Shown: piece after piece, positions 3-17,830 of the stretch
How the letters are laid out: every line of letters starts with the position of its first letter
How positions within the stretch are numbered: position 1 is the stretch's first letter
NCBI GenBank assembly: GCA_945900965.1
Contig: CAMDKM010000012.1
Coordinates: 1-64,000, forward strand
Reading direction: 5' to 3'
Length of the DNA: 64,000 nt
Origin: Bordetella parapertussis
Lineage (GTDB): Bacteria > Pseudomonadota > Gammaproteobacteria > Burkholderiales > JACQAP01
The notes under the pieces: generated by a model
Database searches by the model: none
What the model saw: only the letters and a program-made list of their open reading frames with translations
What the model was told of the DNA's origin: nothing
Made by a program: the position numbers and the translations under genes

Positions 3-614
3 CTCAAGCCGATCGCCGATGAAATTGCGCTAAAGGCCGACGTGATGCTGATCGGTTATGCCGGTGGCGGCGTGCGCAACGTGTTCGCCAACAAGCCGTT
101 GCGCAGTCTGGCTGAGATGAAAGGGGTGAAACTGCGCGTCATGGGGGCACCGGTCTGGAGCCGTGCCTTTGCCGCGGTGGGGATGTCGCCCTCCGTTATT
201 GCCTATAATGAGGTGTACAACGCCATTCAGAACGGCGTGATTGCCGCGGGCGACAACGAGGCGGCCGGCATCGAACAGATGAAGTTCTACGAAGTCGCCT
301 CCCATGTCTCGATGACGCAACACTCTTTCACTATCCGCCCAGTGTGCTTCTCGGGTAAGACTTTCAAGCAACTGCCCGCCGACTTGCAGGCAGCGATCTT
401 GAAAGCCGGCAAAGAGGCTGCCGCCTACGGACGAGACATCGAAAGCCGGGAGGACATGGCCAAACTGGAAGCCATGGAGAAGGCCGGCAAGCTCAAACGC
501 ATCCCTTTTCCTGACCGTGCGCAGATGCAAAAATTGGTAGAGCCGGTGCTCGATGCCTATGCCCGCGATATCGGCGCGGACAAGATTCTTGCCCAGATCA
601 ACGCGCTCAGGTGA
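3..614 (+). CDS. dctP: TRAP transporter substrate-binding protein DctP family, 3' part
   Basis: This is the C-terminal part (about 203 residues) of a periplasmic solute-binding protein of a TRAP transporter; the start lies left of the window. The frame is open from base 3. Family features visible are GVKLRVMGAPVW followed by an aromatic-rich ligand-binding half, and IAYNEVYNAIQNGVIAAGDNE, which resembles the E(V/L)Y-x-A(L)Q-x-G-x-(I/V)-D-G-x-E stretch of DctP proteins. The stop TGA overlaps the GTG start of the small permease gene, so it belongs to a dctPQM operon. The substrate, usually an organic acid, cannot be read from the sequence. Confidence 0.9.
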   Translation, partial: LKPIADEIALKADVMLIGYAGGGVRNVFANKPLRSLAEMKGVKLRVMGAPVWSRAFAAVGMSPSVIAYNEVYNAIQNGVIAAGDNEAAGIEQMKFYEVASHVSMTQHSFTIRPVCFSGKTFKQLPADLQAAILKAGKEAAAYGRDIESREDMAKLEAMEKAGKLKRIPFPDRAQMQKLVEPVLDAYARDIGADKILAQINALR

Positions 615-1093
615 CAAAACTCCTCGGGTTTTATCATCGCCTGCTGACCTGGCTCATGGCGGGCGCGGTGGCGATCCTGATCGTGCCGGTGTCGCTGCAG
701 ATTATTGCGCGCTTCACCGACTGGATTCCCTCCTATATCTGGACCGAGGAACTGGCGCGTTTCCTGTTCATCTGGATGGTCATGATTGGCGCCATGATCG
801 GCATTCGCGAAGGCACTCATTTCGAGGTGGATGTCTGGCCGCAACTGGGCGCAAGAGCCAATGCCCTGCTGCGCTTGACTTCGCTGGTTTTCGTTCTGCT
901 TTTCGCTCTGGTGTTTGTCTGGTGGGGCATTGCCTTCACGCGCTTCGGCTGGGACCAATTGTCCGAAATCGCCGAATTACCGATGTGGATGATCTTCATC
1001 GCCTGGCCGGTGGCCGGATTTACCTGGCTGGTCTTCGCCGGTGAGGCCTTCGTCGCCTGTGTTCGCCGATTGCACGACGGAGAGGCGGCATGA
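611..1093 (+). CDS. dctQ: TRAP transporter small permease DctQ family
   Basis: 160 residues, the usual length for the small integral-membrane subunit that bridges the binding protein and the large permease. Four hydrophobic segments are visible at about residues 12-34, 45-65, 85-107 and 125-150, with the family-typical WTEELARFLFIWMVMIGA around the second helix. It starts with GTG inside the preceding stop (GTGA overlap) and ends in an ATGA overlap with dctM, so the three subunits are translationally coupled. The assignment is firm; the substrate is unknown. Confidence 0.93.
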   Translation: MTKLLGFYHRLLTWLMAGAVAILIVPVSLQIIARFTDWIPSYIWTEELARFLFIWMVMIGAMIGIREGTHFEVDVWPQLGARANALLRLTSLVFVLLFALVFVWWGIAFTRFGWDQLSEIAELPMWMIFIAWPVAGFTWLVFAGEAFVACVRRLHDGEAA

Positions 1094-2409
1094 GCGGTGT
1101 TGCCCTCTCGGCGGGGGCTGCCGCCGCTATCCTTTTCGGCGGATTTTTCCTGATGCTGATTCTGCGCGTGCCGGTGGCCTTCGCTCTGGGGCTGTCCTGC
1201 CTGCCGATCCTCGTGATCGAACCGCGCCTGTCGCCGATGACGCTGTTCAACGAAACCTTCAAGGCCTACAACTCGTTCATCCTGCTGGCCGTGCCATTTT
1301 TTCTGCTTACGGCAAATCTGATGAACATCGGCGGCATCACCGATCGGCTGGTCAGGTTGTCGCGGTCCATCGTCGGCCACTTTCCGGGGTCCCTGGCGCA
1401 GATTAATGTCGTGTTGTCGGTGTTCTTCGCGGGTATTTCCGGTTCGTCCACGGCGGACGCGGCCAGCCAGAGCAAGATCTTCATCGAGGCCCAGACCCGT
1501 GAAGGTTACGGACTGTCCTTCTCGGTGGCGATCACCGCGGTATCCGCGGTGCTGGCAGTCATTATTCCGCCCTCGATCCTGATGGTAGTGTGGGGCGGTG
1601 TGATCTCGACTTCCATCGGTGCGATGTATCTCGCGGGCATTGTGCCCGGCCTGCTCATCGCCGGTGCCCAGATGGCGACCGTGCACGTGTATGCCAAGCG
1701 CTACAACTACCCCGTGTACCCGCGCGCTACATTGAAGGAGTTCCTGAACGCTGCGGGCCAATCCATCCCGGCACTTCTCACCCCCGTCATCATCGTCGGC
1801 GGGATTCTGCTCGGCTGGTTCACTGCCACGGAGTCGGCCGCCATCGCGGTGGTTTACGCCGTGCTCCTGACTGTCTTTGTTTATCGGGAGATGGATCGCA
1901 AAAAACTCTACGAGGTACTTTCGGAAACCGGGCGGCTCTCGGCGATCGCCCTGTTCTGCGTCGGCACGGCGTCGGTGTTCGGCTGGTTGCTGGCCTATTA
2001 CCAGATTCCGAAAATGTTGCTGGAGAACGTGACTTCGATGGGACTGGGGATTATCGGAGTGGGAATATTGATTGCGTTTGTGTTCCTGGTCGTCGGCTGT
2101 TTCCTGGATGCCATTCCCGCCATCATTATCGTCGGCACAACCCTGCAGCCATTGGCGATGTCGGTGGACATGCACCCTGTGCATTTCGCCATGATCGGCA
2201 TCATTTCCCTGGCTTTCGGACTGGTCACGCCACCTTACGGTCTGTGCCTGCTGATTTCCTGTTCGGTGGCCAAAGTTCCGCTGAAATTCGCACTCAAAGA
2301 TACGGTGATCATGCTGGTGCCGATGCTCCTGGTACTGATCGCCGTAATCATCTGGCCGCAGATACCACTGTTCCTGCCGGGATTGATTTCGCCGGATTTC
2401 CTGAAGTGA
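1090..2409 (+). CDS. dctM: TRAP transporter large permease DctM family
   Basis: 439 residues with about 12 hydrophobic segments, the full length of DctM subunits. Visible family motifs include the early AGISGSSTADAASQSKIFI block and the late region LAFGLVTPPYGLCLL, which match the conserved pore regions of the TRAP large subunit. It catalyses Na+-coupled import of the ligand delivered by DctP. The start ATG overlaps the dctQ stop by 4 bases, and its TGA overlaps the GTG of the following GNAT gene, so a fourth gene rides in the operon. Confidence 0.95.
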   Translation: MSGVALSAGAAAAILFGGFFLMLILRVPVAFALGLSCLPILVIEPRLSPMTLFNETFKAYNSFILLAVPFFLLTANLMNIGGITDRLVRLSRSIVGHFPGSLAQINVVLSVFFAGISGSSTADAASQSKIFIEAQTREGYGLSFSVAITAVSAVLAVIIPPSILMVVWGGVISTSIGAMYLAGIVPGLLIAGAQMATVHVYAKRYNYPVYPRATLKEFLNAAGQSIPALLTPVIIVGGILLGWFTATESAAIAVVYAVLLTVFVYREMDRKKLYEVLSETGRLSAIALFCVGTASVFGWLLAYYQIPKMLLENVTSMGLGIIGVGILIAFVFLVVGCFLDAIPAIIIVGTTLQPLAMSVDMHPVHFAMIGIISLAFGLVTPPYGLCLLISCSVAKVPLKFALKDTVIMLVPMLLVLIAVIIWPQIPLFLPGLISPDFLK

Positions 2410-2801
2410 TCGAGTATCGCCAAAATTTCCCGCTGGATCCTGCCGACGTCATTCGCGTCTTCGATTCGTCCGGTATCAAACGTCCAACCGCGGACCCCGC
2501 TCGAATTTCCCGCATGTTTGCCAATTCGAATCTGGTTCTTTCTGCGTGGTCGGATGGGAAGCTGGTTGGCGTTTGCAGGGCGTTGACCGACTTCAGCTAC
2601 TGCTGTTACCTGTCCGATCTGGCGGTGGATCGGGACTTTCAGAAGCAGGGCATCGGCATCGAGCTTCTTCGGCGTGTCCAGGCGGAAATCGGGGAAGAAG
2701 TGACGCTCATTCTGCTTTCCGCTCCTGGCGCCATGACTTACTACCCGAAACTGGCATTCTCCAAGATTGAAAACGGATTCATCGTCAATCGTGTTCGCTG
2801 A
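2406..2801 (+). CDS. GNAT family N-acetyltransferase
   Basis: 131 residues. The start is chosen as GTG at 2406 because it sits in a GTGA overlap with the dctM stop, repeating the coupling seen upstream; longer readings of the same frame only run antiparallel through dctM sense and are not coding. The acetyl-CoA loop region is LAVDRDFQKQGIGIELLRRV (GNAT motif A, Q/R-x-x-G-x-G/A form), followed by LILLSAPGAMTYYPKLAF, the usual beta6-alpha4 YxKLGF-like element. The substrate is unknown; co-transcription with a TRAP system may suggest an amine ligand, which is only inference. Confidence 0.82.
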   Translation: MIEYRQNFPLDPADVIRVFDSSGIKRPTADPARISRMFANSNLVLSAWSDGKLVGVCRALTDFSYCCYLSDLAVDRDFQKQGIGIELLRRVQAEIGEEVTLILLSAPGAMTYYPKLAFSKIENGFIVNRVR

Positions 2802-2836
2802 TTGTGAGGGGCGAGGGACTTCTTGTACTTGGTGCC

Positions 2837-2903
2837 GCCCCCTCTCGCCAACCCCTCTGCTGCGCTTCAAGTGTGCCCTTGTCCCGCAGGGGGCGAGGGG
2901 CTT
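2837..2903. terminator. inverted repeat between convergent genes, possible bidirectional terminator
   Basis: The arms CCCCTCTCGCC (near 2839-2849) and GGGCGAGGGGC (near 2891-2901) can pair across about 40 bases between the convergent GNAT and serine hydrolase genes, and the right arm is followed by TTTT on the plus strand. The sequence resembles the GC-rich CCCTCTC repeats scattered in proteobacterial intergenic regions, so it may be a repeat as much as a terminator. Confidence 0.4.
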
Positions 2904-2904
2904 T

Positions 2905-3963
2905 TCAGTGCTTATTGTTGATCGCTTCCAACACCTTCCCGAAGAATGGGTCGGCAGATTCGGGGGCGATCCAACGCACGACCAGCACCATGCGACTTTG
3001 GGGTTCGATCCACACGTAGTTGCCGCCGGCGCCGATGGCGAACCAGCTGGACTCCGGAACAGAAGGGAAGATTCGCCGCTGGTGATTGAGCCAGACCAGG
3101 TAGCCGTAACACGGTGCGATAGCGCAGGGCTTTCGCATGCGCCGTATCCACTCGGCGGAAAGGATCTGCCGGCCATTTGCCTTGCCCTCATCCAGCATCA
3201 TCTGTCCTATGCGCGCCTGGTCGTGAGCGCTGATCGACACGCCGCCGCCCCAGTGTGTGCCGCCGGGCACGGATTGAACTTTGCGGCCCTTGAGTTCGAT
3301 CCACGCGTTGTCGTAGCCCACCCAGCGCCAGTTGTCACTTGCCCCAAGGGGTTGTGTGATGGTTTCGCCCAACACTTCGGGCAAAGGACGGCCAAACAAG
3401 TGCAGTAGCGCAAGCGAGAGCTGGTTGATCCGCACATCGTTATATTCCCAGTACGTTCCCGGCGTCTGTAACGGGCGCGCACCGCCCCTCTTGCCTGTCA
3501 CCGCGTTTTGATGGAAGGCCAAGGTGCGATAGCGGTCCACCTGATCGGGAACTCCGAATACCGTTCCTTCCCATTCGCTGGTCTGCGTCAGCAGGTGAGC
3601 CCAAGTGATTTGCGCGTTTTGTCCTTGCTCGAAACCGATGCCGGGGACGCGTTTGTGCACCAGTTCATCGACGTCGGGCAACAGCTTGTGGTCATGGGCG
3701 ATGCCGGCGAGCAAGGCGAGATAGGTCTTGGCGATGCTGAAGGTCAGGTCGGCCCTGTGCGGTTCGCCCCAGGACGCCACGGGCTTGCCGTTCAATAGAA
3801 TCGTCCCGGACACCGGGCCGCGTGCATGTACCGGCCCCAGGAGTCTGTTCCAGGGCGGCGGGTCTTCATGATGGATGCCCCACTTGTCGGTAATCTCGCG
3901 CGACCAGGGAATTTCGTGGTCAACCGAAAACTGAACGGCGGCCGCGAGCCTTCTGCTGTCCAT
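2905..3963 (-). CDS. beta-lactamase-fold serine hydrolase (class C / esterase type)
   Basis: 352 residues of the beta-lactamase-related serine hydrolase family. The SxxK nucleophile motif is FSIAKTYLA (about residues 95-103), a YxN-like element occurs in YWEYNDVRIN, and the C-terminal GAGGNYVWIEPQSRMVLVV resembles the end of EstB-type esterases. A THWGGG stretch stands where HTG/KTG normally is. No signal peptide is visible, unlike true class C beta-lactamases, so a cytoplasmic esterase or amidase is more likely than antibiotic resistance. It is transcribed convergently with the TRAP operon. Confidence 0.82.
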   Translation of the reverse strand: MDSRRLAAAVQFSVDHEIPWSREITDKWGIHHEDPPPWNRLLGPVHARGPVSGTILLNGKPVASWGEPHRADLTFSIAKTYLALLAGIAHDHKLLPDVDELVHKRVPGIGFEQGQNAQITWAHLLTQTSEWEGTVFGVPDQVDRYRTLAFHQNAVTGKRGGARPLQTPGTYWEYNDVRINQLSLALLHLFGRPLPEVLGETITQPLGASDNWRWVGYDNAWIELKGRKVQSVPGGTHWGGGVSISAHDQARIGQMMLDEGKANGRQILSAEWIRRMRKPCAIAPCYGYLVWLNHQRRIFPSVPESSWFAIGAGGNYVWIEPQSRMVLVVRWIAPESADPFFGKVLEAINNKH

Positions 3964-4081
3964 GAGGTATGCTTTTCATCCTGATCGATAACAATCTGAG
4001 CAGCAATGTAGCATTCCTCTGGATTAGTGTCTGCGAGACTCGGATAATCGCGATTGCGCGGCGGAAAGGTGTTCCAGATAT

Positions 4082-4180
4082 TAAGTGTCTTCCACGCGAA
4101 TGCGGGGAATCAGCTTCACTTGAAAACCCTGGATTCCCGTCTCCACGGGAATGACATTGGGGGACTTATCCAGTGTTTCC
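4082..4180. repeat. copy of dispersed intergenic repeat (relative of the 41.3 kb MITE-like element)
   Basis: Contains TAAGTGTCTTCC at the left, the core CTGGATTCCCGT..CACGGGAATGACATT and the right end GGACTTATCCAGTGTTTCC. The same blocks in the same order occur at 41305-41450, with a longer interior there. The left terminal inverted repeat is degraded in this copy. A short core also occurs at 17831-17853. No transposase is nearby. Confidence 0.75.
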
Positions 4181-4229
4181 TTGACTGGATACCGACCATT
4201 GAATCCGCTACGAAATTTTCCGAGGGCAC

Positions 4230-4427
4230 ATGAATAGTCTGTTTATCGGAGTGGTTACCGGGGCATTTGGCATGGCCTATTTTGTCTATGGGAAACGCCA
4301 GACGCTTTTTGTGCCGATGTTTTCGGGCATCCTGCTTTGTATCTATCCCTACTTCATCGAAAACATGTTTTGGCTCTGCTTCGTTGGCATTGCCCTGATT
4401 GCCGCGCCGTTTGTGCTCAGATATTGA
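4230..4427 (+). CDS. small two/three-helix membrane protein
   Basis: 65 residues that are almost wholly hydrophobic, with segments at about 2-19, 26-42 and 46-62 separated by a GKRQ turn. A GAGGG ribosome site lies about 6 bases upstream of the ATG. I recognise the type: a short conserved bacterial membrane protein of unknown role, sometimes labelled as amino acid transport protein without strong evidence. It stands alone between the repeat at 4.1 kb and the TauE gene. Confidence 0.7.
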   Translation: MNSLFIGVVTGAFGMAYFVYGKRQTLFVPMFSGILLCIYPYFIENMFWLCFVGIALIAAPFVLRY

Positions 4428-4550
4428 GACAGCGCCGCCAGATTCAACTGCGTTGGCACTGGATTTTGCCGACGATATCCTTTTCCTGTAATTTGAAAGT
4501 CAGAAATTCAAATTGCAGAAATTTGCGGGCAAGCGTAAGAAAGTGATCGC

Positions 4551-5276
4551 ATGGAATATGTTGTGATTCTCGCCGTTGGCCTTGTTGCCGGGACACTCGG
4601 CGGCATCGTTGGATTCGGCTCCTCGATCATGTTGATGCCAGTGCTGGTCATTTCATTCGGGCCGCGCCAGGCGGTGCCGATCATGGCGATAGCTGCAGTG
4701 ATGGCCAATTTCGCCCGCATTCTGGTTTGGTGGCGGGAAGTGGACTGGCGGGCGGTCGCCGCTTATTCCGTGACAGGGGTCCCCGCCGCGGCCCTGGGTG
4801 CGCGAACCCTGGTGGCGCTGCCCCCGCGGCTGGTGGAAAGTGCGTTGGGCTTGTTCTTCATCGCGATGATTCCGCTTCGGCGCTGGATGGCGACGCACAA
4901 CCTGCGGCTCAACGCCTGGCATCTTGCGGCGATAGGTCTGCCCATCGGGTTTGTCACTGGCATCGTGGTGTCCACCGGGCCGATCACGGCGCCAATCTTC
5001 CTGGCCTATGGGATGGTGAAGGGCGCCTTTGTCGGCAGCGAAGCTGCGGCGTCGCTGGCGGTGTACCTGAGCAAGTCGATTACCTTCCGCAGTCTTGGGG
5101 TATTGCCTTGGGACATTGCGGTGAAAGGGCTCACTACCGGATCATCGTTGATGGCAGGCGCGTTTGTCGCCAAACGTTTCGTGCTGAAACTGGAGCCCGA
5201 ACATTTCCGCCTGCTGATGGAAGGGCTGATGCTGCTGTCGGGGGCCGTCTTGCTGTGGGCCGCGGTGTTTCCGTAG
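4551..5276 (+). CDS. sulfite exporter TauE/SafE family permease
   Basis: 241 residues with about 7-8 hydrophobic segments. The N-terminal GTLGGIVGFGSSIMLMPVLV is the TauE/SafE (DUF81) signature G-x-(I/V)-G-x-G-(G/S)-x-x-x-x-P, and it is partly repeated in the second half (IGLPIGFVTGIVVSTGPITA). Members export sulfite, sulfoacetate or other anions. The gene is convergent with the following SDR operon. The substrate is not predictable from context. Confidence 0.88.
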   Translation: MEYVVILAVGLVAGTLGGIVGFGSSIMLMPVLVISFGPRQAVPIMAIAAVMANFARILVWWREVDWRAVAAYSVTGVPAAALGARTLVALPPRLVESALGLFFIAMIPLRRWMATHNLRLNAWHLAAIGLPIGFVTGIVVSTGPITAPIFLAYGMVKGAFVGSEAAASLAVYLSKSITFRSLGVLPWDIAVKGLTTGSSLMAGAFVAKRFVLKLEPEHFRLLMEGLMLLSGAVLLWAAVFP

Positions 5277-5289
5277 TGAATCGTTAATT

Positions 5290-6072
5290 TCAGCGATCGA
5301 GTCCGTCGGACGCCAGATACCCGCCATCCACCGGGATGCAAATCCCGCTGACGTGATCCGACGCCGATGAGGCAAGGTAAAGGCAGGTTCCAACCAGTTC
5401 CGAGGTTTCTCCCAGGCGGCCCGATGGGGTCCGGCGCTTGATCGACTGCTCCAGCGACGTGCCGCGTAATTCGCCGGTCATTTCGGTGAAAAAATATCCC
5501 GGCGCGATGGCGTTGACCTGTATGCCCAATGGCATCAACTCCACCGCATTGACCTTCGTTAATCCGATGACTCCGTGTTTGGAGGCTGTGTAGGCGACCT
5601 GCAAGCCCTTGCTGGGTGCGGTCAGGCCATAGACCGAGGAGATATTGATGATCTTGCCGCTGCCCTGGGCCTTCATGCAGCGGGCGGCGTGTTTGGTGCA
5701 AAGGAACGGACCCGTCAGATTGATGGCCATCACCCGGTCCCAATCCGCTCGATCGAGTTCCATGACCGACTTGCGGTTCACATCGCCGGCGTTGTTGACG
5801 AGGATGTCGAGTCGGCCGAAACGTTTGATCACGCCCTCGATCGCGCGCTCGACCGCTGTCTCGTCGCAAACATCGAACTCAAAGGCCGCTGCGTGAGGGC
5901 CATCGCCACCCAGTTCCTTGAGTGCTTCGGCATTGCGCGCGGCGCGGCGGCCCCCGATCGCCACTTTGGCGCCGGCATCTCGCATGGCCTTGGCCAGCGT
6001 TCGTCCAATGCCGCTATTTCCGCCAGTTACCAGTGCAACGCGCCCTTCCAGGGAGAACAGATTGGTTCCCAT
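5290..6072 (-). CDS. SDR family NAD(P)-dependent oxidoreductase
   Basis: 260 residues, classical short-chain dehydrogenase/reductase. The cofactor motif TGGNSGIG is near residue 16, NNAG near 95, catalytic Ser in INISSVYG and the YTASK active site follow, and the C-terminal PVDGG is typical. The start ATG at 6072 is chosen because it overlaps the TGA of the upstream CmcJ-like gene (TGATG); the frame is open further upstream but that reads through the neighbour. It is the third gene of a GST / CmcJ-like / SDR operon and probably oxidises or reduces the same small molecule. Confidence 0.92.
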   Translation of the reverse strand: MGTNLFSLEGRVALVTGGNSGIGRTLAKAMRDAGAKVAIGGRRAARNAEALKELGGDGPHAAAFEFDVCDETAVERAIEGVIKRFGRLDILVNNAGDVNRKSVMELDRADWDRVMAINLTGPFLCTKHAARCMKAQGSGKIINISSVYGLTAPSKGLQVAYTASKHGVIGLTKVNAVELMPLGIQVNAIAPGYFFTEMTGELRGTSLEQSIKRRTPSGRLGETSELVGTCLYLASSASDHVSGICIPVDGGYLASDGLDR

Positions 6073-9459: not shown

Positions 9460-10251
9460 TTACTTTGCCCGCCATCCCCCATCCACCACCATGGTATGCC
9501 CATTCACATAGCTGGCTTCGTCGGACGCCAGATAACACACAGCGGACGCGATGTCCTCGACAGTGCCGCGTACACCGGCCGGGACCAAGGCACGGACCTG
9601 ATCGTCATTGACCGCGACACCTCGTCCGCTCATGTCCGGCACGCCCGGTCCCAGCAAGGCCTGGGAATGAGGCCGCAGCCCGGTCGGAATTGCGCCGGGG
9701 CAGATCGCGTTGACCGTGATCCCGCGCGCGCCATAGGCAACCGCCATCTGCCGCGTGATGCCCACCACGCCATGTTTGGCGGCCACATATGCGGCACCGC
9801 CGCCGGTGCCATTAAGGCCGGCCACCGATGCCATATTGATGATGCGCCCCCGGCCACGCGGCAGCATTTCCTTCAGTGCCCGCTTGGCGCCGAGAAATAC
9901 ACTGACCAGATCGATATCGATGACCCTTCGAAACACCGCCTCGTCCATTTCATCGGCATTGAAGTAGCCGTCGAGAATGCCGGCGTTGTTGACCAGGATA
10001 TCGAGAGGGCCGAGTTCCTTGACCGCCGCGGTGATCGCCGCATCGATGTCGACGGACTTGCTGACGTCAGTGCGATAGCTTCGCGCGCGTCCGCCGGCCT
10101 TGACAATGATCTGGGCAGTTTCCCTGGCGGTGGCCTCGTCGATGTCGATCACCCCCACCCCCGCGCCGCGCGCACCGAGCATGATTGCGATAGCGCGCCC
10201 AATGCCCGAACCGGCTCCGGTAACCACGGCCATTTTCTTGTCAAAGCTCAT
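9460..10251 (-). CDS. SDR family NAD(P)-dependent oxidoreductase
   Basis: 263 residues. TGAGSGIGRA cofactor motif near residue 12, NNAG near 92, catalytic Ser in INMASVAG and YVAAK active site, ending VVDGGW. Two adjacent ATGs are available; the second (10251) is chosen because GAGGAG lies 6 bases before it but only 3 before the first. The acidic VIDIDE after the second strand suggests NAD+ preference. It stands alone downstream of a repeat; the substrate is unknown. Confidence 0.92.
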   Translation of the reverse strand: MSFDKKMAVVTGAGSGIGRAIAIMLGARGAGVGVIDIDEATARETAQIIVKAGGRARSYRTDVSKSVDIDAAITAAVKELGPLDILVNNAGILDGYFNADEMDEAVFRRVIDIDLVSVFLGAKRALKEMLPRGRGRIINMASVAGLNGTGGGAAYVAAKHGVVGITRQMAVAYGARGITVNAICPGAIPTGLRPHSQALLGPGVPDMSGRGVAVNDDQVRALVPAGVRGTVEDIASAVCYLASDEASYVNGHTMVVDGGWRAK

Positions 10252-10323
10252 CATTTGCTCCTCTACTTGTTCGGCATGTGCCTGAATCGCAAATATTTGG
10301 CGCTCGGGACGTCGAAGACGACT

Positions 10324-10346
10324 CCCTCTCCCTTGACGGGAGAGGG
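10324..10346. repeat. hairpin of the CCCTCTCCC dispersed repeat type
   Basis: CCCTCTCCC (10324-10332) and GGGAGAGGG (10338-10346) pair perfectly around TTGAC. Similar CCCTCTCC tracts follow to 10395, and then GGGGTCAGGCCTATACTTTATAGG, a piece that looks like a decayed mobile repeat. This fills the gap between the SDR start and the glutaredoxin-like gene. Confidence 0.6.
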
Positions 10347-10434
10347 CAGGGGAGAGGGTGAAAAACCCGGCGCGCTCGCCTCCCTCTCCGGAAATATGGG
10401 GTCAGGCCTATACTTTATAGGTCATTCTGGCACC

Positions 10435-10806
10435 TTACATCTTTAGCGCCGCCAGGAATTCGTCCGAATCGAAACCGTTCTTCATCTGGTAGCCGCGCAC
10501 CAGCAAAAAAGGCGTGCCGTCCGCGCCATAATTTCTGAATTCCTGAATGCAGCGCTCATCCACGCTCATATTGCATTCGGTAAACGCAAAACCATTCTGG
10601 TTAAGCCAACCCTTGGCCTGGGTGCAATATCCACAATCGGTGGTCGAGTACATCACCACATCGCCGGCCTTGACGGTTGCGGCCAAAGCGCTAATTTGTG
10701 TCGAGGTCATTTTGCCCGTTGAAGAAGGGGAAGCACCTGTTCCAAAGTGTTTCCAAGCGAGGTGCAGGCAGCCTACAGCCAGCAATAGAATGAACAGTCG
10801 GCCCAT
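10435..10806 (-). CDS. exported glutaredoxin/thioredoxin-fold protein
   Basis: 123 residues. An N-terminal hydrophobic stretch (residues 4-19) is a signal peptide or membrane anchor, followed by a glutaredoxin-like domain with the redox motif DCGYC (about residue 58) and the cis-Pro element GTPFLLVRG. A third and fourth cysteine (NMSVDERC) lie after the second strand. Members act in periplasmic thiol-disulfide exchange or are of unknown role. No strong ribosome site is visible before the ATG. Confidence 0.8.
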   Translation of the reverse strand: MGRLFILLLAVGCLHLAWKHFGTGASPSSTGKMTSTQISALAATVKAGDVVMYSTTDCGYCTQAKGWLNQNGFAFTECNMSVDERCIQEFRNYGADGTPFLLVRGYQMKNGFDSDEFLAALKM

Positions 10807-10870
10807 GGGCGCTACAATTCGAATTCGATTTGTCTCAGATTATAGCCGCCAGATTTCTTTATTCCGCCGA

Positions 10871-11575
10871 TCACATCCGCCCGGCGATCGGAATTAATGC
10901 GCCCGTGATGGCCCGTGCCCGGTCGGAAAGCAGGAACACAATCAGATCGGCAATCTGGTCTGGACTTACCCAGCGCGAAAAATCGGCATCCGGCATGTCG
11001 GCGCGATTGGCAGAAGTGTCGATGATCGAAGGCAGGACGGCATTTACGGTCACCGCCCGGTCTTTCAATTCCTCGGCCATAGCCTCGGTAAGCTTGGCCA
11101 CGCCAGCCTTCGACGCGGCATAAGCGCCCATGCCAGTGCCGGCCTTGGCCGCCGCTAGGGCGCCCACATTCACGATGCGCCCGTTGGCGGAAGCGAGCAG
11201 ATGCGGCAGTGCCGCCTGCGAGGCATTGACCGCGGTGCGTACATTCATCTGGTAGAGATGGTCCCAGGTGTCGATGCTGCCGCTGACTATCTTTTCCCAA
11301 CGAAATCCACCGGCGACATTGACCAGCGCATCCAGACGCCCAAAGCGCGCGATGATTTGCGCAATTGCCTGGCGCGCGCTGCCCGCTGATCCTAGATCAA
11401 CGCCACCCAGGGCAAGTGCCTCCGGCATGTCCGGCGGTGCTTTCGAGTTCTCCGCCCGGTCGATCAGAGCGACCTTCGCCCCGGCTGTTACGGTGGTCCT
11501 CGCCACGGCCGCGCCCAAGCTGCCAAAGCCCCCGGTTACCGCAACAACCTTCCCATTCAGGTCCAGCGAAATCAT
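10871..11575 (-). CDS. SDR family protein with Ala at the catalytic Ser position
   Basis: 234 residues of SDR fold: TGGFGSLGAAVA cofactor loop, NVAGG instead of NNAG, and the YAASK pair. At the site of the catalytic serine, 13 residues before the Tyr, the sequence is IVNVGALAA, so an alanine replaces serine. The C-terminus LIPIAGRM lacks the usual DGG. I recall a group of SDRs with this NVGA form, so this may be a family property and not decay. GGGAGC precedes the ATG. The reaction is unknown. Confidence 0.88.
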   Translation of the reverse strand: MISLDLNGKVVAVTGGFGSLGAAVARTTVTAGAKVALIDRAENSKAPPDMPEALALGGVDLGSAGSARQAIAQIIARFGRLDALVNVAGGFRWEKIVSGSIDTWDHLYQMNVRTAVNASQAALPHLLASANGRIVNVGALAAAKAGTGMGAYAASKAGVAKLTEAMAEELKDRAVTVNAVLPSIIDTSANRADMPDADFSRWVSPDQIADLIVFLLSDRARAITGALIPIAGRM

Positions 11576-11650
11576 GAATTGCTCCCGTATTCCGGTGTAC
11601 GCCGCCTGTCAATGGCCCTGTGCTTCCCGCGAGATGGATTACTCTGTGCA

Positions 11651-11947
11651 CTATTCTCCACCGTACCCCGCTTCCCGCTGGTGCTTTATTGAAAGAACCA
11701 GACGGTCGTCAAACTCTTCGTGCCACCGGTAGAGCGCGACATAGCCGTATTGCCCTCTGGAAATTACGAGTTCACGATAGCCGCTCTCCACCTTTCGCCC
11801 AATCAATGGATGACCTTTGAGAATTTCCACGGCTTCGCGAATACGCCCAACAGTGGAGATGGCACCTTGCGGATCGGACTGTGCAATGAATTCAAAAATC
11901 CCCTCCAGATCCTTAAGGCATAGCGGACTTAAACTGACGGTGGCCAC
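11651..11947 (-). CDS. parE: ParE/RelE-type toxin
   Basis: 98 residues of the RelE/ParE superfamily: LSPLCLKDLEGIFEFIAQ at the first helix, GHPLIGRKVES, REL-VISRGQYGYVALYRWHEEFDDRLVLSIKHQRE with the YRxxxxxxxVLxIxHxRE pattern of ParE. It starts with GTG inside the end of the antitoxin gene (19-base overlap), the normal antitoxin-first order. Likely target is DNA gyrase, known for ParE; not proven here. Confidence 0.88.
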   Translation of the reverse strand: MATVSLSPLCLKDLEGIFEFIAQSDPQGAISTVGRIREAVEILKGHPLIGRKVESGYRELVISRGQYGYVALYRWHEEFDDRLVLSIKHQREAGYGGE

Positions 11948-12219
11948 TTCTTCGCCCGCGGTTTGGTTGCCTTCTTGCCTCGGGCTCTGGCTTCCAGATA
12001 AGCGAGGGCTTCGGACGCCTCGTACGCTTTTCCGCCCCGAAGCACTTCGGCATGTGCGACCTGCGCCTCTTCCATGAACTGCCGGCGCTGTTCGGCGCGT
12101 TCGGTTTCGCGCCGGATGGCTTCCACCATGAAAGCATGCGCAGTCTGTTCGCGTTGTGCTACGACCGCGTCAACGCGCTTCTTTAGTTCATCGGGTAACT
12201 TCAAACTCGTGGCCGCCAT
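11929..12219 (-). CDS. ribbon-helix-helix antitoxin
   Basis: 96 residues. The N-terminal SLKLPDELKKRVDAVVAQREQTAHAFMVEAI is a ribbon-helix-helix DNA-binding and dimer module (CopG/ParD-like); a charged helix and a Lys/Arg-rich tail follow, the part that probably wraps the toxin. AGGAG precedes the ATG. It is first in a two-gene operon with the ParE-type toxin and should repress its own promoter, as is known for such pairs. Confidence 0.87.
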   Translation of the reverse strand: MAATSLKLPDELKKRVDAVVAQREQTAHAFMVEAIRRETERAEQRRQFMEEAQVAHAEVLRGGKAYEASEALAYLEARARGKKATKPRAKKWPPSV

Positions 12220-12311
12220 GATTGGTCTCCTGACCTTACGGTAGCAACAAAGTACTACTCACGCGACGTGTCTGTCAAGAATGCGCTGGGGTTCATCCCG
12301 AAGGTAATCTC

Positions 12312-14030
12312 TTACGACGCCAGCTTGCCCTTCAACACTTGGCCGGCATAATTGCCGGTCGGCTCGCCGTTCTCCAGGGTCACGACTCCGTTGACGATGG
12401 CGGCGCGAATCCCCTCGGCTTTTTGCACCAGCCGTCGTGCACCGCCGGGCAAGTCGCTTTCGACCGTCGGCAGAAGCGGGCGCACGCGGTCTTCCTCGAA
12501 CAGCAGCACGTCGGCCTTGTAGCCTTCCTTGATGAGGCCGCGGTCTCTCAACTCGAAGGCTTGCGCGTTGTCGTGAGACAACTTTTTTATTGCTTGCTCC
12601 AAGGTAAAGGCGCCGCGCTTGTTCACCCAGTAGTGCAGCAGATGAGTTTGCAGAGAAGAACCCATCTCCTGCGCGACATGCGCGCCCGAGTCGGAGAAAG
12701 TCGCCAGCGTAAAGACCTGGCTGAGCATGCCCAGAATGTCCTCGCGGCTTTCATTCACGATCGGCTGCACGTAGATCTGGTTCTCGTTGTCGAGCGATAG
12801 GTCGATCATGACTTCCACGGGATGTTTGCCGCGCGCCCGGGCGAGTTCATCGACGGTCGGGTCATCCCAATCAACTCCCTTGAGCGCGTAGAGATTGCCG
12901 TAGTCCGGCTTGCGGGGGTCCGTCGTGGCAGCGCCGCCGCCTTGCATCGTGTTGTCCCGGGGTTTCATCGTCTGCTCGGCCGCGATCAGCTCGTGGCGCC
13001 GCGCCGGGTCGCGCAATTGTTGTTTCTGCTCCTCCAGCGGCAAAGACCGAATGGCCTTCCAGGCAGGCAGCACATCGAACGGCAGATAGGACTTCAGCGA
13101 GAAGATCGCATTGATCGAACGCGTCGTGCCCTGAGCGAACATGCGCCCGCCGGCTTCGTTCACCTCTCGGATCGCTTTCGCCTGGGTCTGCCACTTCACA
13201 GGCTCTTCGCCCTGGCGCGTGTTGAAGATACCGAACATGATGGGGCGTTTATGCGTGAGTGCCAGATGACGCATCCGTTTCAGGAATGCGACGCTTACGG
13301 TTTGCGAAGCGATCTCGGGCCCGGTCTGAAAAATCCCCGCACCAAGTTCCGCCATCGCCGCGACGATGCGTTCGATTTCGTCCCATCCCGCGACTCGACT
13401 GGCGACCGGTGTGCCGTCGGGCGTCAGGTGAGTATGCGTGCGCGAGGTGGAAAACCCCACCGCCCCCGCCTTGAGTGCCTCCTGGACCAGACGCGCCATG
13501 CGGCAGATTTCTTCGTCGGAGGCCTTGTCCGTCACCGCGCGCCGGCCCATGACGTACATTCGCACCGCCGAGTGCCCGATATACATCGCGTAGTTCAGCG
13601 CCTTGGGCCGGCGCTCGACTGCGGCCATGTATTCGGGGAAGGTTTCCCAGGTCCAGTCAATACCGGCCGCCATGGCATCGGTCGAGATGTCCTCGACGTA
13701 GGACAGGCTGTTCGCATACCACTCGCGATCCGCCGGCTTGCACGGGGCCAACGTGAAGCCACAGTTGCTCATCACCACCGAGGTCACGCCGTGGAAGCAC
13801 GAACAACTGCCCAGCGGGTCCCACATCACCTGCGCATCCATGTGGGTGTGGCCGTCAATGAAGCCGGGCGAGACAATCAACCCGTCGGCGTCGATGGTGC
13901 GCCGGGCCGCATCGCCGATGCGCCCGACCTTGGCAATGCGGCCGTTCGAGATGCCGACATCCGCGACAAAGCGCTTGCCGCCCGAGCCATCGACTACGGT
14001 GCCGCCGCGTATCAGTAGATCCAGTGTCAT
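12312..14030 (-). CDS. D-aminoacylase/N-acyl-D-amino-acid deacylase family amidohydrolase
   Basis: 572 residues. LLIRGGTVVDGSGG at the start, the metal HxH in FIDGHTHMD (about residue 62), the metal-bridging cysteine in MSNCGFTLAP, GIFNTRQGE mid-protein and the late SDSGAHV Asp place it in the D-aminoacylase branch of the amidohydrolase superfamily. Members hydrolyse N-acyl-D-amino acids or related amides. GGAGAAAT precedes the ATG. It ends about 90 bases from the toxin-antitoxin pair and is probably monocistronic. Confidence 0.92.
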   Translation of the reverse strand: MTLDLLIRGGTVVDGSGGKRFVADVGISNGRIAKVGRIGDAARRTIDADGLIVSPGFIDGHTHMDAQVMWDPLGSCSCFHGVTSVVMSNCGFTLAPCKPADREWYANSLSYVEDISTDAMAAGIDWTWETFPEYMAAVERRPKALNYAMYIGHSAVRMYVMGRRAVTDKASDEEICRMARLVQEALKAGAVGFSTSRTHTHLTPDGTPVASRVAGWDEIERIVAAMAELGAGIFQTGPEIASQTVSVAFLKRMRHLALTHKRPIMFGIFNTRQGEEPVKWQTQAKAIREVNEAGGRMFAQGTTRSINAIFSLKSYLPFDVLPAWKAIRSLPLEEQKQQLRDPARRHELIAAEQTMKPRDNTMQGGGAATTDPRKPDYGNLYALKGVDWDDPTVDELARARGKHPVEVMIDLSLDNENQIYVQPIVNESREDILGMLSQVFTLATFSDSGAHVAQEMGSSLQTHLLHYWVNKRGAFTLEQAIKKLSHDNAQAFELRDRGLIKEGYKADVLLFEEDRVRPLLPTVESDLPGGARRLVQKAEGIRAAIVNGVVTLENGEPTGNYAGQVLKGKLAS

Positions 14031-14393
14031 GGATTTCTCCTATCGCCGGTCAGGTGTTTTATACGGCCGAAAGGCAGTCATTCAGGCAAGCCTCTCGCGC
14101 CTCGGCCCGTCTTTCGGACCTGGAGTCTGAATTCTCTCACGATGTCGAGCAGATCTTCCCCTGGAGTTGTTGCTGGAACGACTGCGCCCAGGCCACCAGG
14201 ATTTGCATGGAGTATCAAGCTTTGCGGGATTTATTAAGACAATCGCCAAGAGAACAGAAGGTAAGCCATGAAGGGACAAAGGGGAATCTCACCAAGAAAA
14301 TATTCCTGAACGAGTAGAGAAAGCATTACTAGGACAATCCTGGGAATTTTGTTTTTGGTCTGCGCTCATCTTCGACGCCGTGACGGGAACCTC
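14031..14393. other. intergenic region, nothing recognised
   Basis: 363 bases between two minus-strand genes. Short open frames exist on both strands but have no ribosome site, no family resemblance and odd composition. No hairpin, repeat or promoter stands out. It probably carries the promoter of the D-aminoacylase gene. Confidence 0.5.
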
Positions 14394-15140
14394 CTAAGCC
14401 GCCATGTAACCCCCGTCCACCGGCAACGCTATGCCGGTGACGAAAGCCGCTTCATCGCTCGCCAGGTACAAAATCGCAGCTGCAATTTCCTCAGGGAATC
14501 CGAAACGGCCGAGGGGATAGCGCTTCAATACTCGTTCCGTCCAGGCCGGGTCCTGGCGCAGGCCGACGGTCATCGGGGTTTCGATTACACCTGGGCAGAC
14601 GCAATTAACGCGAACGGCGGGCGCCAGTTCCAGCGCCATCTGGCGGGTAAAATTGACGATGGCGCCTTTTGACGCGGCGTAGGCCGAGCCGGTCGAGCCG
14701 CCCACCAGACCAAATATGGACGCGAGATGGGTGATGGAACCCGCGCCGCTGGCCGTGAGTGCCGGTGTGGCCGCGCGCGAAGCGAGGAAGGTTCCGGTGA
14801 GGTTGATGTCGATTACGCGATTCCAATCTTCAAGCGTCGGCGTAACGTTGGGTCGCGCAGGCCGCACGCCTGCCGAGTTGACCAGCGTGGTAAGTCGGCC
14901 AAATCGAGTTAGCGTGTCCGCCACCATGCGTTCGCAGGCTGACTCGTCCGTCACGTCCACCACGAGCGCCATGGCCTCACCGCCCGCCGCAGTGATCGCC
15001 TGGGCAGTCTGCGCGGCAGCTTCGGCCGAAGTATCAGCGCACACCACCTGCGCTCCTTCCGCACCCAGGCGCATTGCCGTGGCGCGGCCAAGTCCTGAAG
15101 CCGCGCCGGTGACCAGCGCCACTTTGTTTTTCATTCGCAT
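14394..15140 (-). CDS. SDR family NAD(P)-dependent oxidoreductase
   Basis: 248 residues: TGAASGLG cofactor motif near residue 13, NSAG, catalytic Ser in THLASIFG, YAASK, and PVDGGY at the end. The start ATG at 15140 is preceded by GAGAGGA 6 bases upstream; the longer frame to 15176 lacks one. It is the third stand-alone classical SDR of the region. DTSAEA after the second strand suggests NAD+ preference. The substrate is unknown. Confidence 0.92.
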   Translation of the reverse strand: MRMKNKVALVTGAASGLGRATAMRLGAEGAQVVCADTSAEAAAQTAQAITAAGGEAMALVVDVTDESACERMVADTLTRFGRLTTLVNSAGVRPARPNVTPTLEDWNRVIDINLTGTFLASRAATPALTASGAGSITHLASIFGLVGGSTGSAYAASKGAIVNFTRQMALELAPAVRVNCVCPGVIETPMTVGLRQDPAWTERVLKRYPLGRFGFPEEIAAAILYLASDEAAFVTGIALPVDGGYMAA

Positions 15141-15328
15141 ATTGTTTCCTCTCCGCACTTCACCGATCCACAACAATCGGGTTAGCCAAAATTCCGCCTC
15201 GTCTCCGCGCCGTCTCGACCGTTCCGACCAAATAGACGAGTATCAATAGGATACGCCAGTGCTTGGCCTGCTTCACCGGGCTCGGGATCGTGTATTCTTC
15301 GATGAAGTTTCCATTCGTCGAAGCTTTT

Positions 15329-16928: not shown

Positions 16929-17660
16929 CTAATACCGCTGATAGATTTCCAGCGCCTTGAGCATCGATTTCTCGCGCTCGATTATTGGGATCATCTTGGA
17001 TTCCTTGTCGTCGTACTGCTTGAGTGCGGCAATGACTCGTTCCGCGGCTTCCACTGGCACTACGACCACACCATCGGCATCGCCGACGATGTAGTCTCCA
17101 GGCCGGACCAAGACGCCGCCGCAATACACGGGAATCTGCTTGTCCACGGCTATCATGCGGCCGACGGAGGTTGCGGGGCTGACCCGCCTTGACCAAACCG
17201 GGAATTGCAACCGCCGAAGTTCAGCAATATCTCGCACTGCCCCGTCGATGACGGCACCCGCCAAGCCACGTACCTTGGCGGTGGTGCCCATGAGGTTGCC
17301 CATGGCTGCGATATCCAGGCCATCTTGCATCACGTAGACCAAAATACTCCCCGGCTCGGCCTGGTCGAGGATTTCCAGGTGGTGAGGGGAATATTTCTTC
17401 GGATCGCCGCGCAGTACCGGCCGCATCAGCGCGGTGGCGGCCCGGCCGACCATGCGCGTGTCGAAAATTGGTTTCATGTCCGGCGACATCCAGCCACGTG
17501 CGCCAGTAACTTCCTCGACTGCATCGGCGATATTGCCCGTGCTGTTTTGCGGACGTTCCAGTGCCGCGATAATCTCCTGTGGCGTGAGTGCGGCCGCATG
17601 GGGCATCAATATCGTTGCCCAAAAGACCATCGCGATGCATTGACTCAATCGGTAAAACAT
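16929..17660 (-). CDS. exported RraA/HMG-aldolase family protein
   Basis: 243 residues. The body matches the RraA / 4-hydroxy-4-methyl-2-oxoglutarate aldolase fold: GSILVYVMQDGLDIAAMGNLMG (GxxGxxG-like substrate loop), GAVIDGAVRDIAEL with the conserved RD, FPVWSRRVSP and PGDYIVGDADGVVVVP with the metal-binding Asp pair. What is unusual is a clear signal peptide at residues 1-25 (MFYRLSQCIAMVFWATILMPH then AAA). The start at 17660 has AAGGAG at 5-6 bases; a longer reading to 17792 has none. Known RraA proteins are cytoplasmic. Confidence 0.85.
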   Translation of the reverse strand: MFYRLSQCIAMVFWATILMPHAAALTPQEIIAALERPQNSTGNIADAVEEVTGARGWMSPDMKPIFDTRMVGRAATALMRPVLRGDPKKYSPHHLEILDQAEPGSILVYVMQDGLDIAAMGNLMGTTAKVRGLAGAVIDGAVRDIAELRRLQFPVWSRRVSPATSVGRMIAVDKQIPVYCGGVLVRPGDYIVGDADGVVVVPVEAAERVIAALKQYDDKESKMIPIIEREKSMLKALEIYQRY

Positions 17661-17830
17661 CCTGCTCCTTCCAAAAAATCGGTTTGTTTGAGGAAATGGT
17701 ACACCTATGCCGTCAATGGAAATTGAGGTCCCAGGAATAACCGTATCCGTACGACACCCAAGGCAGGAGATGAGTCTGCCGTGATGACGCAAATGAAGTG
17801 GTGGAGAACGGGGAATTTCCTCTCAAAAAA

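Follow-up and report, generated by a model that had tools for sequence, protein, structure and literature searches.

A conserved branch of RraA-like proteins with predicted Sec signal peptides in three bacterial phyla

Proteins of the RraA/HMG-CHA aldolase family are treated as cytoplasmic, and an active-site motif separates the enzymes of the family from the regulators of RNase E. The window, a 64,000-nucleotide stretch of a contig from Bordetella parapertussis assembly GCA_945900965.1, contains an RraA-like gene that appears to begin with a secretion signal, which raises the questions of where its product acts and what it does there. The open reading frame occupies 16929..17660 on the minus strand, stop codon included, as located by the first-pass annotation; it encodes 243 amino acids with no internal stops and is supported by its relatives. 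A Shine-Dalgarno-like sequence, GGAAGGAG (17665..17672, minus strand), lies 4 bases 5′ of the ATG at 17660, the order on the coding strand being GGAAGGAG-CAGG-ATG, in agreement with the earlier claim that a normal ribosome site selects this ATG. ATG, GTG or TTG triplets before codon 58 are confined to codons 1, 5, 11, 18 and 19, and a good ribosome site was not seen by eye at ATG19/TTG18. The next start triplet after codon 19 is codon 58 itself, which is within the fold, past a conserved STGN.ADA block. As no start is available between codons 19 and 58, and codon 58 is inside the fold, a leaderless product is possible only via ATG19/TTG18.

Residues 1–24 (MFYRLSQCIAMVFWATILMPHAAA; 17589..17660, minus strand) constitute a predicted Sec-type signal peptide, with cleavage proposed after Ala-24, and residues 25–243 (16932..17588, minus strand) are the mature protein. 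The segment has a net charge of +1, a hydrophobic core and A-A-A before Leu-25, the cleavage region reading HAAA before and LTPQE after the proposed cut. The three Sec features, namely a positive n-region, a hydrophobic h-region and small residues at −3/−1, are all present as judged by a crude, home-made test of n-, h- and c-regions, and the protein passes this rule, in line with the first-pass description of a clear signal peptide ending in AAA ahead of the fold. A hydrophobic leader precedes a common conserved mature start in all 28 relatives that were fetched (58–82% identical, from three phyla). The best 9-mer mean Kyte-Doolittle values ranged from 1.79 to 3.76 across these relatives, with 2.21 for the window protein. 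The letters and length of the leader vary freely, and conservation begins at approximately (M/L/I)(T/S)PEQ in an alignment of 25 sequences (alignment A1, comprising 25 of 29 sequences with L011, L015, L027 and L028 left out). The interpretation that the window protein is a lone freak or an artefact of start codon choice was rejected in view of the leader kept in relatives, the ribosome site and the map of start codons. Overall, the predicted export of the window protein to the periplasm via a Sec leader is well supported by sequence conservation.

The search for other signal-bearing members that had been recommended was productive beyond these relatives. The home-made signal-peptide rule was passed by 39 of 45 distinct subfamily members versus none of the 60 Pseudomonadota proteins taken from the rest of the RraA family. 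Among the six that failed, five (L029, L030, L044, L047 and L049) have a leader that is visible by eye; the sixth, L027, has a broken frame with a leader visible by eye in a separate upstream frame. In this Limnohabitans assembly the gene, at about 889–1674, is split by a frame break that reflects either sequence error or decay. Members at intermediate distance passed in 13 of 18 cases. L051–L053, L091 and L092 failed: the hydrophobic stretch is plainly absent from L051–L053, which are from Pseudomonadota, and is visible by eye in L091 and L092. Among 88 distant family members, a sample biased to high-scoring matches and with phylum labels assigned by hand, nine passed (6/12 from Saprospiraceae/Lewinellaceae, 3/16 from Acidobacteria and 0/60 from Pseudomonadota). 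The premise that the family is cytoplasmic as far as known is consistent with the few characterized members encountered, but signal-bearing RraA-like proteins proved to be recurrent. Nothing relevant to an exported RraA was found among the open-access papers listed, which does not show the fact to be unpublished.

Within the RraA/HMG-CHA aldolase family, the window protein falls into a conserved subfamily, predicted to be exported, that extends over three bacterial phyla. The 28 relatives comprise 22 from records titled Burkholderiales/Betaproteobacteria or the like, four from Saprospiraceae/Lewinellaceae and two from Acidobacteria. One record, L022 (CALPPP020000059.1), is titled Rickettsia typhi; its gene is 71% identical to that of the window and its neighbors resemble those of L007/L012, and the record is probably a mislabelled assembly. 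Exported RraA was detected in 16 of 300 genomes of the window's order, representing seven of 134 genera, and an intact copy was absent from the three other genomes of the window's genus that were examined. No further match of subfamily strength emerged from 398 genomes drawn from the phylum of the window; 296 genomes of the Bacteroidota phylum gave a match in the starting genome only, and three of 297 genomes of the Acidobacteria phylum matched, the starting genome counted.

A tree of 82 sequences, obtained by a quick search with long-branch warnings and with L029, L047, L073 and L091 labelled as signal-bearing by eye, united 24 signal-bearing rows and L051–L053 in one well-supported set around the window protein (98, starred); alignment A2 comprised 82 of 118 references. 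The signal-bearing pairs L073/L175 and L150/L180 were placed elsewhere in the tree, and thus RraA-like proteins with leaders are spread over several lines of descent within the family. The distribution of the leader on the tree requires a minimum of four state changes, two of which are forced by starred branches, with gain and loss not distinguished. Distant RraA-like proteins with leaders, several per genome, were also noted in two Saprospiraceae/Lewinellaceae genomes (L073, L175, L179–L182 and L185 in G670 and G671; L073 by eye). An adjoining acidobacterial branch (L078–L092) has the motif GGLM or GNLM and leaders in most members; the leaders of L086 and L088 may be uncleaved anchors.

Residues 41–200 match the Pfam RraA-like family PF03737 with 129.6 bits versus a cut-off of 24.5, and ten NCBIfam models match the protein, none at its cut-off. 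The AlphaFold2 model of the mature protein adopts the RraA fold with a mean pLDDT of 96.3; this model was produced from 82 diverse sequences, and an earlier one from 25 close relatives (pLDDT 55.5) was discarded. In structure comparisons the 12 best entries were RraA, HMG aldolase or uncharacterized relatives with Z scores of 16.9–27.0, the next entry scoring 8.3. Superposition with the HMG/CHA aldolase of Pseudomonas putida (3noj) gave a Z score of 25.1 and an rmsd of 1.9 over 199 residues. The RraA/HMG-CHA aldolase fold named by the first-pass annotation is therefore upheld.

The metal and catalytic motif of HMG/CHA aldolase is D-X20-R-D. In the alignment with 3noj, Arg-123 and Asp-124 correspond to Arg-143 and Asp-144 of the window protein (codons at 17229..17234, minus strand), which are kept, and Asp-102 corresponds to Asn-122 (17295..17297, minus strand), a position occupied by Asn in all 45 distinct subfamily members. 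An alternative motif, G-X20-R-D-X2-E/D, was reportedly described by Mazurkewich and others in 2014 for lyases of the TtRraA/Yer010Cp type. The Glu of its second half is Glu-147 in the window protein (17220..17222, minus strand) and is found in 40 of 45 members, with Ala in the other five; the Gly is replaced by Asn. Thus, the subfamily has a pattern of its own, N-X20-R-D-X2-E, the trailing Glu being present in 40/45, and half of the earlier claim about the RD and Asp metal residues holds: the Arg-143–Asp-144 pair is retained and the first Asp is not. The surroundings of the substrate site also differ from 3noj, with PATSVGR where the aldolase has AQGTVKE, and with short insertions near Asp-86 and Tyr-90. 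All 25 sequences of alignment A1 share Gly-121, Asp-139, Gly-140, Arg-143, Asp-144, PATSVGR and PGDYI..D.DG without change; members outside this alignment include L048 and L059 with Asp at Gly-188 and L049 with Gln at Pro-187. In a study of HMG/CHA aldolase, the R123K mutation cuts kcat 181-fold (PMC5065237). The equivalent residue, Arg-143, is retained in the window protein. Retention of the Arg-Asp pair, together with the many residues invariant across three phyla, argues for a functional active site.

Comparison with named systems places the protein near to, but apart from, each of them. It resembles the HMG/CHA aldolases of the LigK/PcmE/GalC type, exemplified by that of P. putida F1 (3noj), in fold, in the equivalents of Arg-123 and Asp-124 and in length, with 29% identity. 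It differs from them in having Asn-122 and PATSVGR for Asp-102 and AQGTVKE and in adding a signal peptide; the D-X20-R-D motif is N-X20-R-D throughout the subfamily, and scores with the aldolase equivalogs TIGR02798 (106.0 versus 304.5 bits) and NF006731 (114.6 versus 179 bits) fall short of the cut-offs. The RNase E regulator RraA of Escherichia coli (1q5x and 2yjv) shares the core fold with a Z score of about 19, but is a cytoplasmic protein of about 160 amino acids compared to 219 amino acids plus a leader for the window protein, which scored below the RraA cut-offs of NF006875 (54.9 versus 136 bits) and TIGR01935 (47.7 versus 123.8 bits). FlDet of Flavobacterium sp. UMI-01 is an RraA-family dehydratase/decarboxylase of KDGR (2-keto-3-deoxy-glucarate) with 237 residues, and N-terminal sequencing of the native protein gave Met-Thr-Thr-Leu, with a cleaved leader absent (PMC8563752). 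The likeness, which is by description rather than by alignment, lies in the shared family and in the substrate of FlDet, a 2-keto-3-deoxy diacid of sugar-acid catabolism; unlike FlDet, the window protein has a predicted leader.

The genes that surround exported RraA were compared across lineages. Immediately downstream in the window, 66 bases past the RraA-like stop codon and on the same strand, is a gene for a RidA-like protein (PF01042; 16449..16862, minus strand). Further downstream, a row of genes at 9460–15176 (minus strand) comprises three short-chain-dehydrogenase-like genes, of which one was assigned by Pfam and two by inspection, together with genes for a glutaredoxin-like protein and an amidohydrolase (PF07969). 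When 13 window neighbor genes were looked for around the 28 relatives, the RidA, BNR and amidohydrolase proteins gave no match, and the few matches obtained (to a trypsin-like protease, SDRs and an MR/MLE protein) were all distant. Other associations recur elsewhere. The next gene 3′ of RraA, on the same strand, encodes an intradiol dioxygenase of the protocatechuate-3,4 type in eight of eight loci from two families (L095–L102). The interval between the RraA match and the mature dioxygenase match is 129–171 bases, mostly dioxygenase leader. By eye, all eight of these leaders are Tat-like, with R-R followed by a hydrophobic stretch (e.g., RRRLMG and RRNLLIAG). The partner dioxygenase resembles the beta subunit of protocatechuate 3,4-dioxygenase (2pcd), which is matched by profile A3 with an E-value of 3e-34, and YPGRAPHIHF is kept; unlike 2pcd, it has a twin-arginine-like leader, and an adjacent alpha-subunit gene was not noticed. 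The open-access literature gave no paper on an intradiol dioxygenase together with RraA, and none of the papers listed for an exported intradiol dioxygenase contains that term.

A DHDPS-family gene is divergent from RraA in nine of 14 loci of the order, a count from which two of 16 loci (that of the window and G245) were left out. With Pfam assignments made on the representatives L013 and L007, RraA is followed on the same strand in L013, L014 and L019 by genes for a PfkB protein (KDG-kinase-like), KDPG aldolase, TctC, a 157-amino acid protein and TctA, and is adjoined by a branched-chain-type (HAAT) ABC transporter in L007, L012, L017, L023, L024 and L027. The leaderless sisters L052 and L053 adjoin PfkB, and L053 also adjoins KDPG aldolase. 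MR/MLE sugar-acid dehydratases are encoded near L030, L077/L107, L081/L112 and L083, with the window's own 6.5 kb away, and a heparinase/alginate-lyase-like gene is located at L029. With a periplasmic aldolase, decarboxylase or binding protein as the roles put forward earlier, the gene neighbors favor a protein that handles oxo-acids and suggest either ring-cleavage products or sugar acids. As the neighbors differ by lineage, and RraA and the dioxygenase are each found without the other, the partnership with the dioxygenase is not obligate. IlvD-like genes recur in several lineages, but were rejected as partners; they are 80–96% identical and lie beside LysR, gyrase and other probable housekeeping genes. 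Two further observations were made near exported RraA: a gene of the PF04199 'cyclase' family is beside or near it in one lineage (L020, L021, L017, L023 and L024; Pfam on L020), and a Polynucleobacter assembly (L010) encodes a 1018-amino acid protein with an IpgD-like domain (PF05925) at 132–3188 on the minus strand.

The genome that contains the window possesses a homologous dioxygenase on contig C9 that is 64% identical to that of L098. Its leader, MDIQRRKVLGTAMLAAVAGPALA, contains QRRKVLGTAML and is Tat-like. The gene is divergent from a DHDPS-family gene, with IlvD-like and LysR-like genes near (L197, G000:C9:42536-51051, 3935-5756). The dioxygenase and DHDPS-family lyase of this locus are the two genes that flank RraA in other families, and no RraA match was found near the pair. 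In a sister species, G023, a relic of RraA is positioned exactly between the DHDPS and dioxygenase genes (L220, 969–1181): it spans residues 105–175 with 86% identity and one stop codon, and the remainder of the gene was not found. Most simply, the DHDPS, RraA and dioxygenase genes would have been neighbors in the ancestral genome of the genus, with RraA later decaying in one species and coming to lie at another place in the window genome.

Co-occurrence was assessed in the same 300 genomes of the order for both genes, as judged from agreeing genome labels, with a strong dioxygenase match defined as 280 bits or more with profile A3. As the profile derives from RraA-positive genomes, the threshold was set post hoc and the genomes are related, the figures overstate the case: exported RraA was present in 10 of 14 strong-dioxygenase genomes versus 16/300 overall (Fisher p 5e-12), in 10/17 at 240 bits and 12/22 at 200 bits, in 4/6 versus 7/134 when counted by genus (p 4e-5), and in 2/8 versus 4/284 after removal of the eight linked genomes (p 0.009). 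Six of the 16 exported-RraA genomes of the order have no strong dioxygenase match, and four of the 14 strong-dioxygenase genomes have no intact RraA.

The best reading, which is advanced tentatively and at somewhat less than even confidence, is that the protein acts in the periplasm as a metal-dependent lyase or decarboxylase of oxo-acids, working with exported ring cleavage. The Sec leader, conserved as a sequence feature, would carry the RraA-like protein to the periplasm, where Arg-143, Asp-144 and Glu-147 would ring a presumed metal site in which Asn-122 replaces the usual Asp. The step performed there would most likely be a divalent-metal-dependent retro-aldol cleavage, decarboxylation or dehydration/decarboxylation, and the substrate a 2-oxo or hydroxy di- or tricarboxylic acid. 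In the linked lineages this acid would probably be supplied by the exported intradiol dioxygenase, through extracytoplasmic opening of a ring of the catechol or gallate type. To judge from adjoining genes in other lineages, the product would be imported by a HAAT-type ABC or tripartite tricarboxylate transporter, and the pathway would be completed by the cytoplasmic DHDPS-family lyase or by enzymes of the KDG-kinase/KDPG-aldolase type. A more specific proposal, that ring cleavage in the periplasm by a Tat-exported protocatechuate-dioxygenase-like enzyme, breakdown of the oxo-acid there by a Sec-exported RraA-type lyase with the Asn site, import and a cytoplasmic DHDPS-family lyase make up an undescribed extracytoplasmic catabolic module of Burkholderiales-type bacteria, is more doubtful.

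The MR/MLE, KDG-kinase-like and KDPG-aldolase neighbors are as suggestive of sugar acids as of aromatics, which counts against this best reading. The protein might instead be an exported enzyme of sugar-acid (aldonate, uronate or 2-keto-3-deoxy acid) catabolism with chemistry like that of FlDet, a reading that ranks second and is rather unlikely. The PfkB, KDPG aldolase, TctC and TctA genes that follow RraA in three loci, the PfkB and KDPG aldolase genes beside the leaderless sisters, and the dehydratase and heparinase/alginate-lyase-like genes argue for it, and FlDet offers a precedent within the family, but the exported intradiol dioxygenase is the tightest and most repeated neighbor, and FlDet has no cleaved leader (PMC8563752). 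Ranked third, and unlikely, is an exported but non-catalytic binding or partner protein in the periplasm, for example of the dioxygenase, or a transporter-linked binder of oxo-acids. With Asn for the catalytic Asp in every one of the 45 members and Ala for Glu-147 in five, the metal site is unproven and catalysis may be lacking altogether; E. coli RraA exemplifies a protein of this fold that lacks lyase activity. The apparently kept active site, with its Arg-Asp pair and further residues invariant across three phyla, weighs against a purely binding role, as does the occurrence of RraA without the dioxygenase.

It is highly improbable that the hydrophobic segment goes unused, through a downstream start or retention in the cytoplasm, and that the protein is an ordinary RraA-like enzyme. 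The mature start is Met in 17 of 24 aligned relatives (e.g., MTPEQ and MTEEQ), and thus an internal start is conceivable for those relatives, and the window gene has ATG19/TTG18 within its leader. However, Leu, Ile or Val stands first in the mature part of the window protein (Leu) and of L010, L011, L015–L017, L025, L026, L032 and L034, and ATG1 of the window gene has a strong ribosome site. Furthermore, the 28 leaders stay hydrophobic while their letters vary, as is signal-peptide-like, and the partner dioxygenases have leaders as well. The periplasmic lyase or decarboxylase coupled to ring cleavage heads the order of readings.

If exported as predicted, the window protein cannot be a regulator of RNase E. 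A conserved, signal-bearing branch in which all examined members are without the first Asp of the motif runs against two rules of thumb for the family, namely its cytoplasmic location and the motif by which its enzymes are told from the regulators. Moreover, RraA, the exported dioxygenase and the DHDPS-type lyase form a small gene set with which ring cleavage and oxo-acid lysis in the periplasm may be tested.
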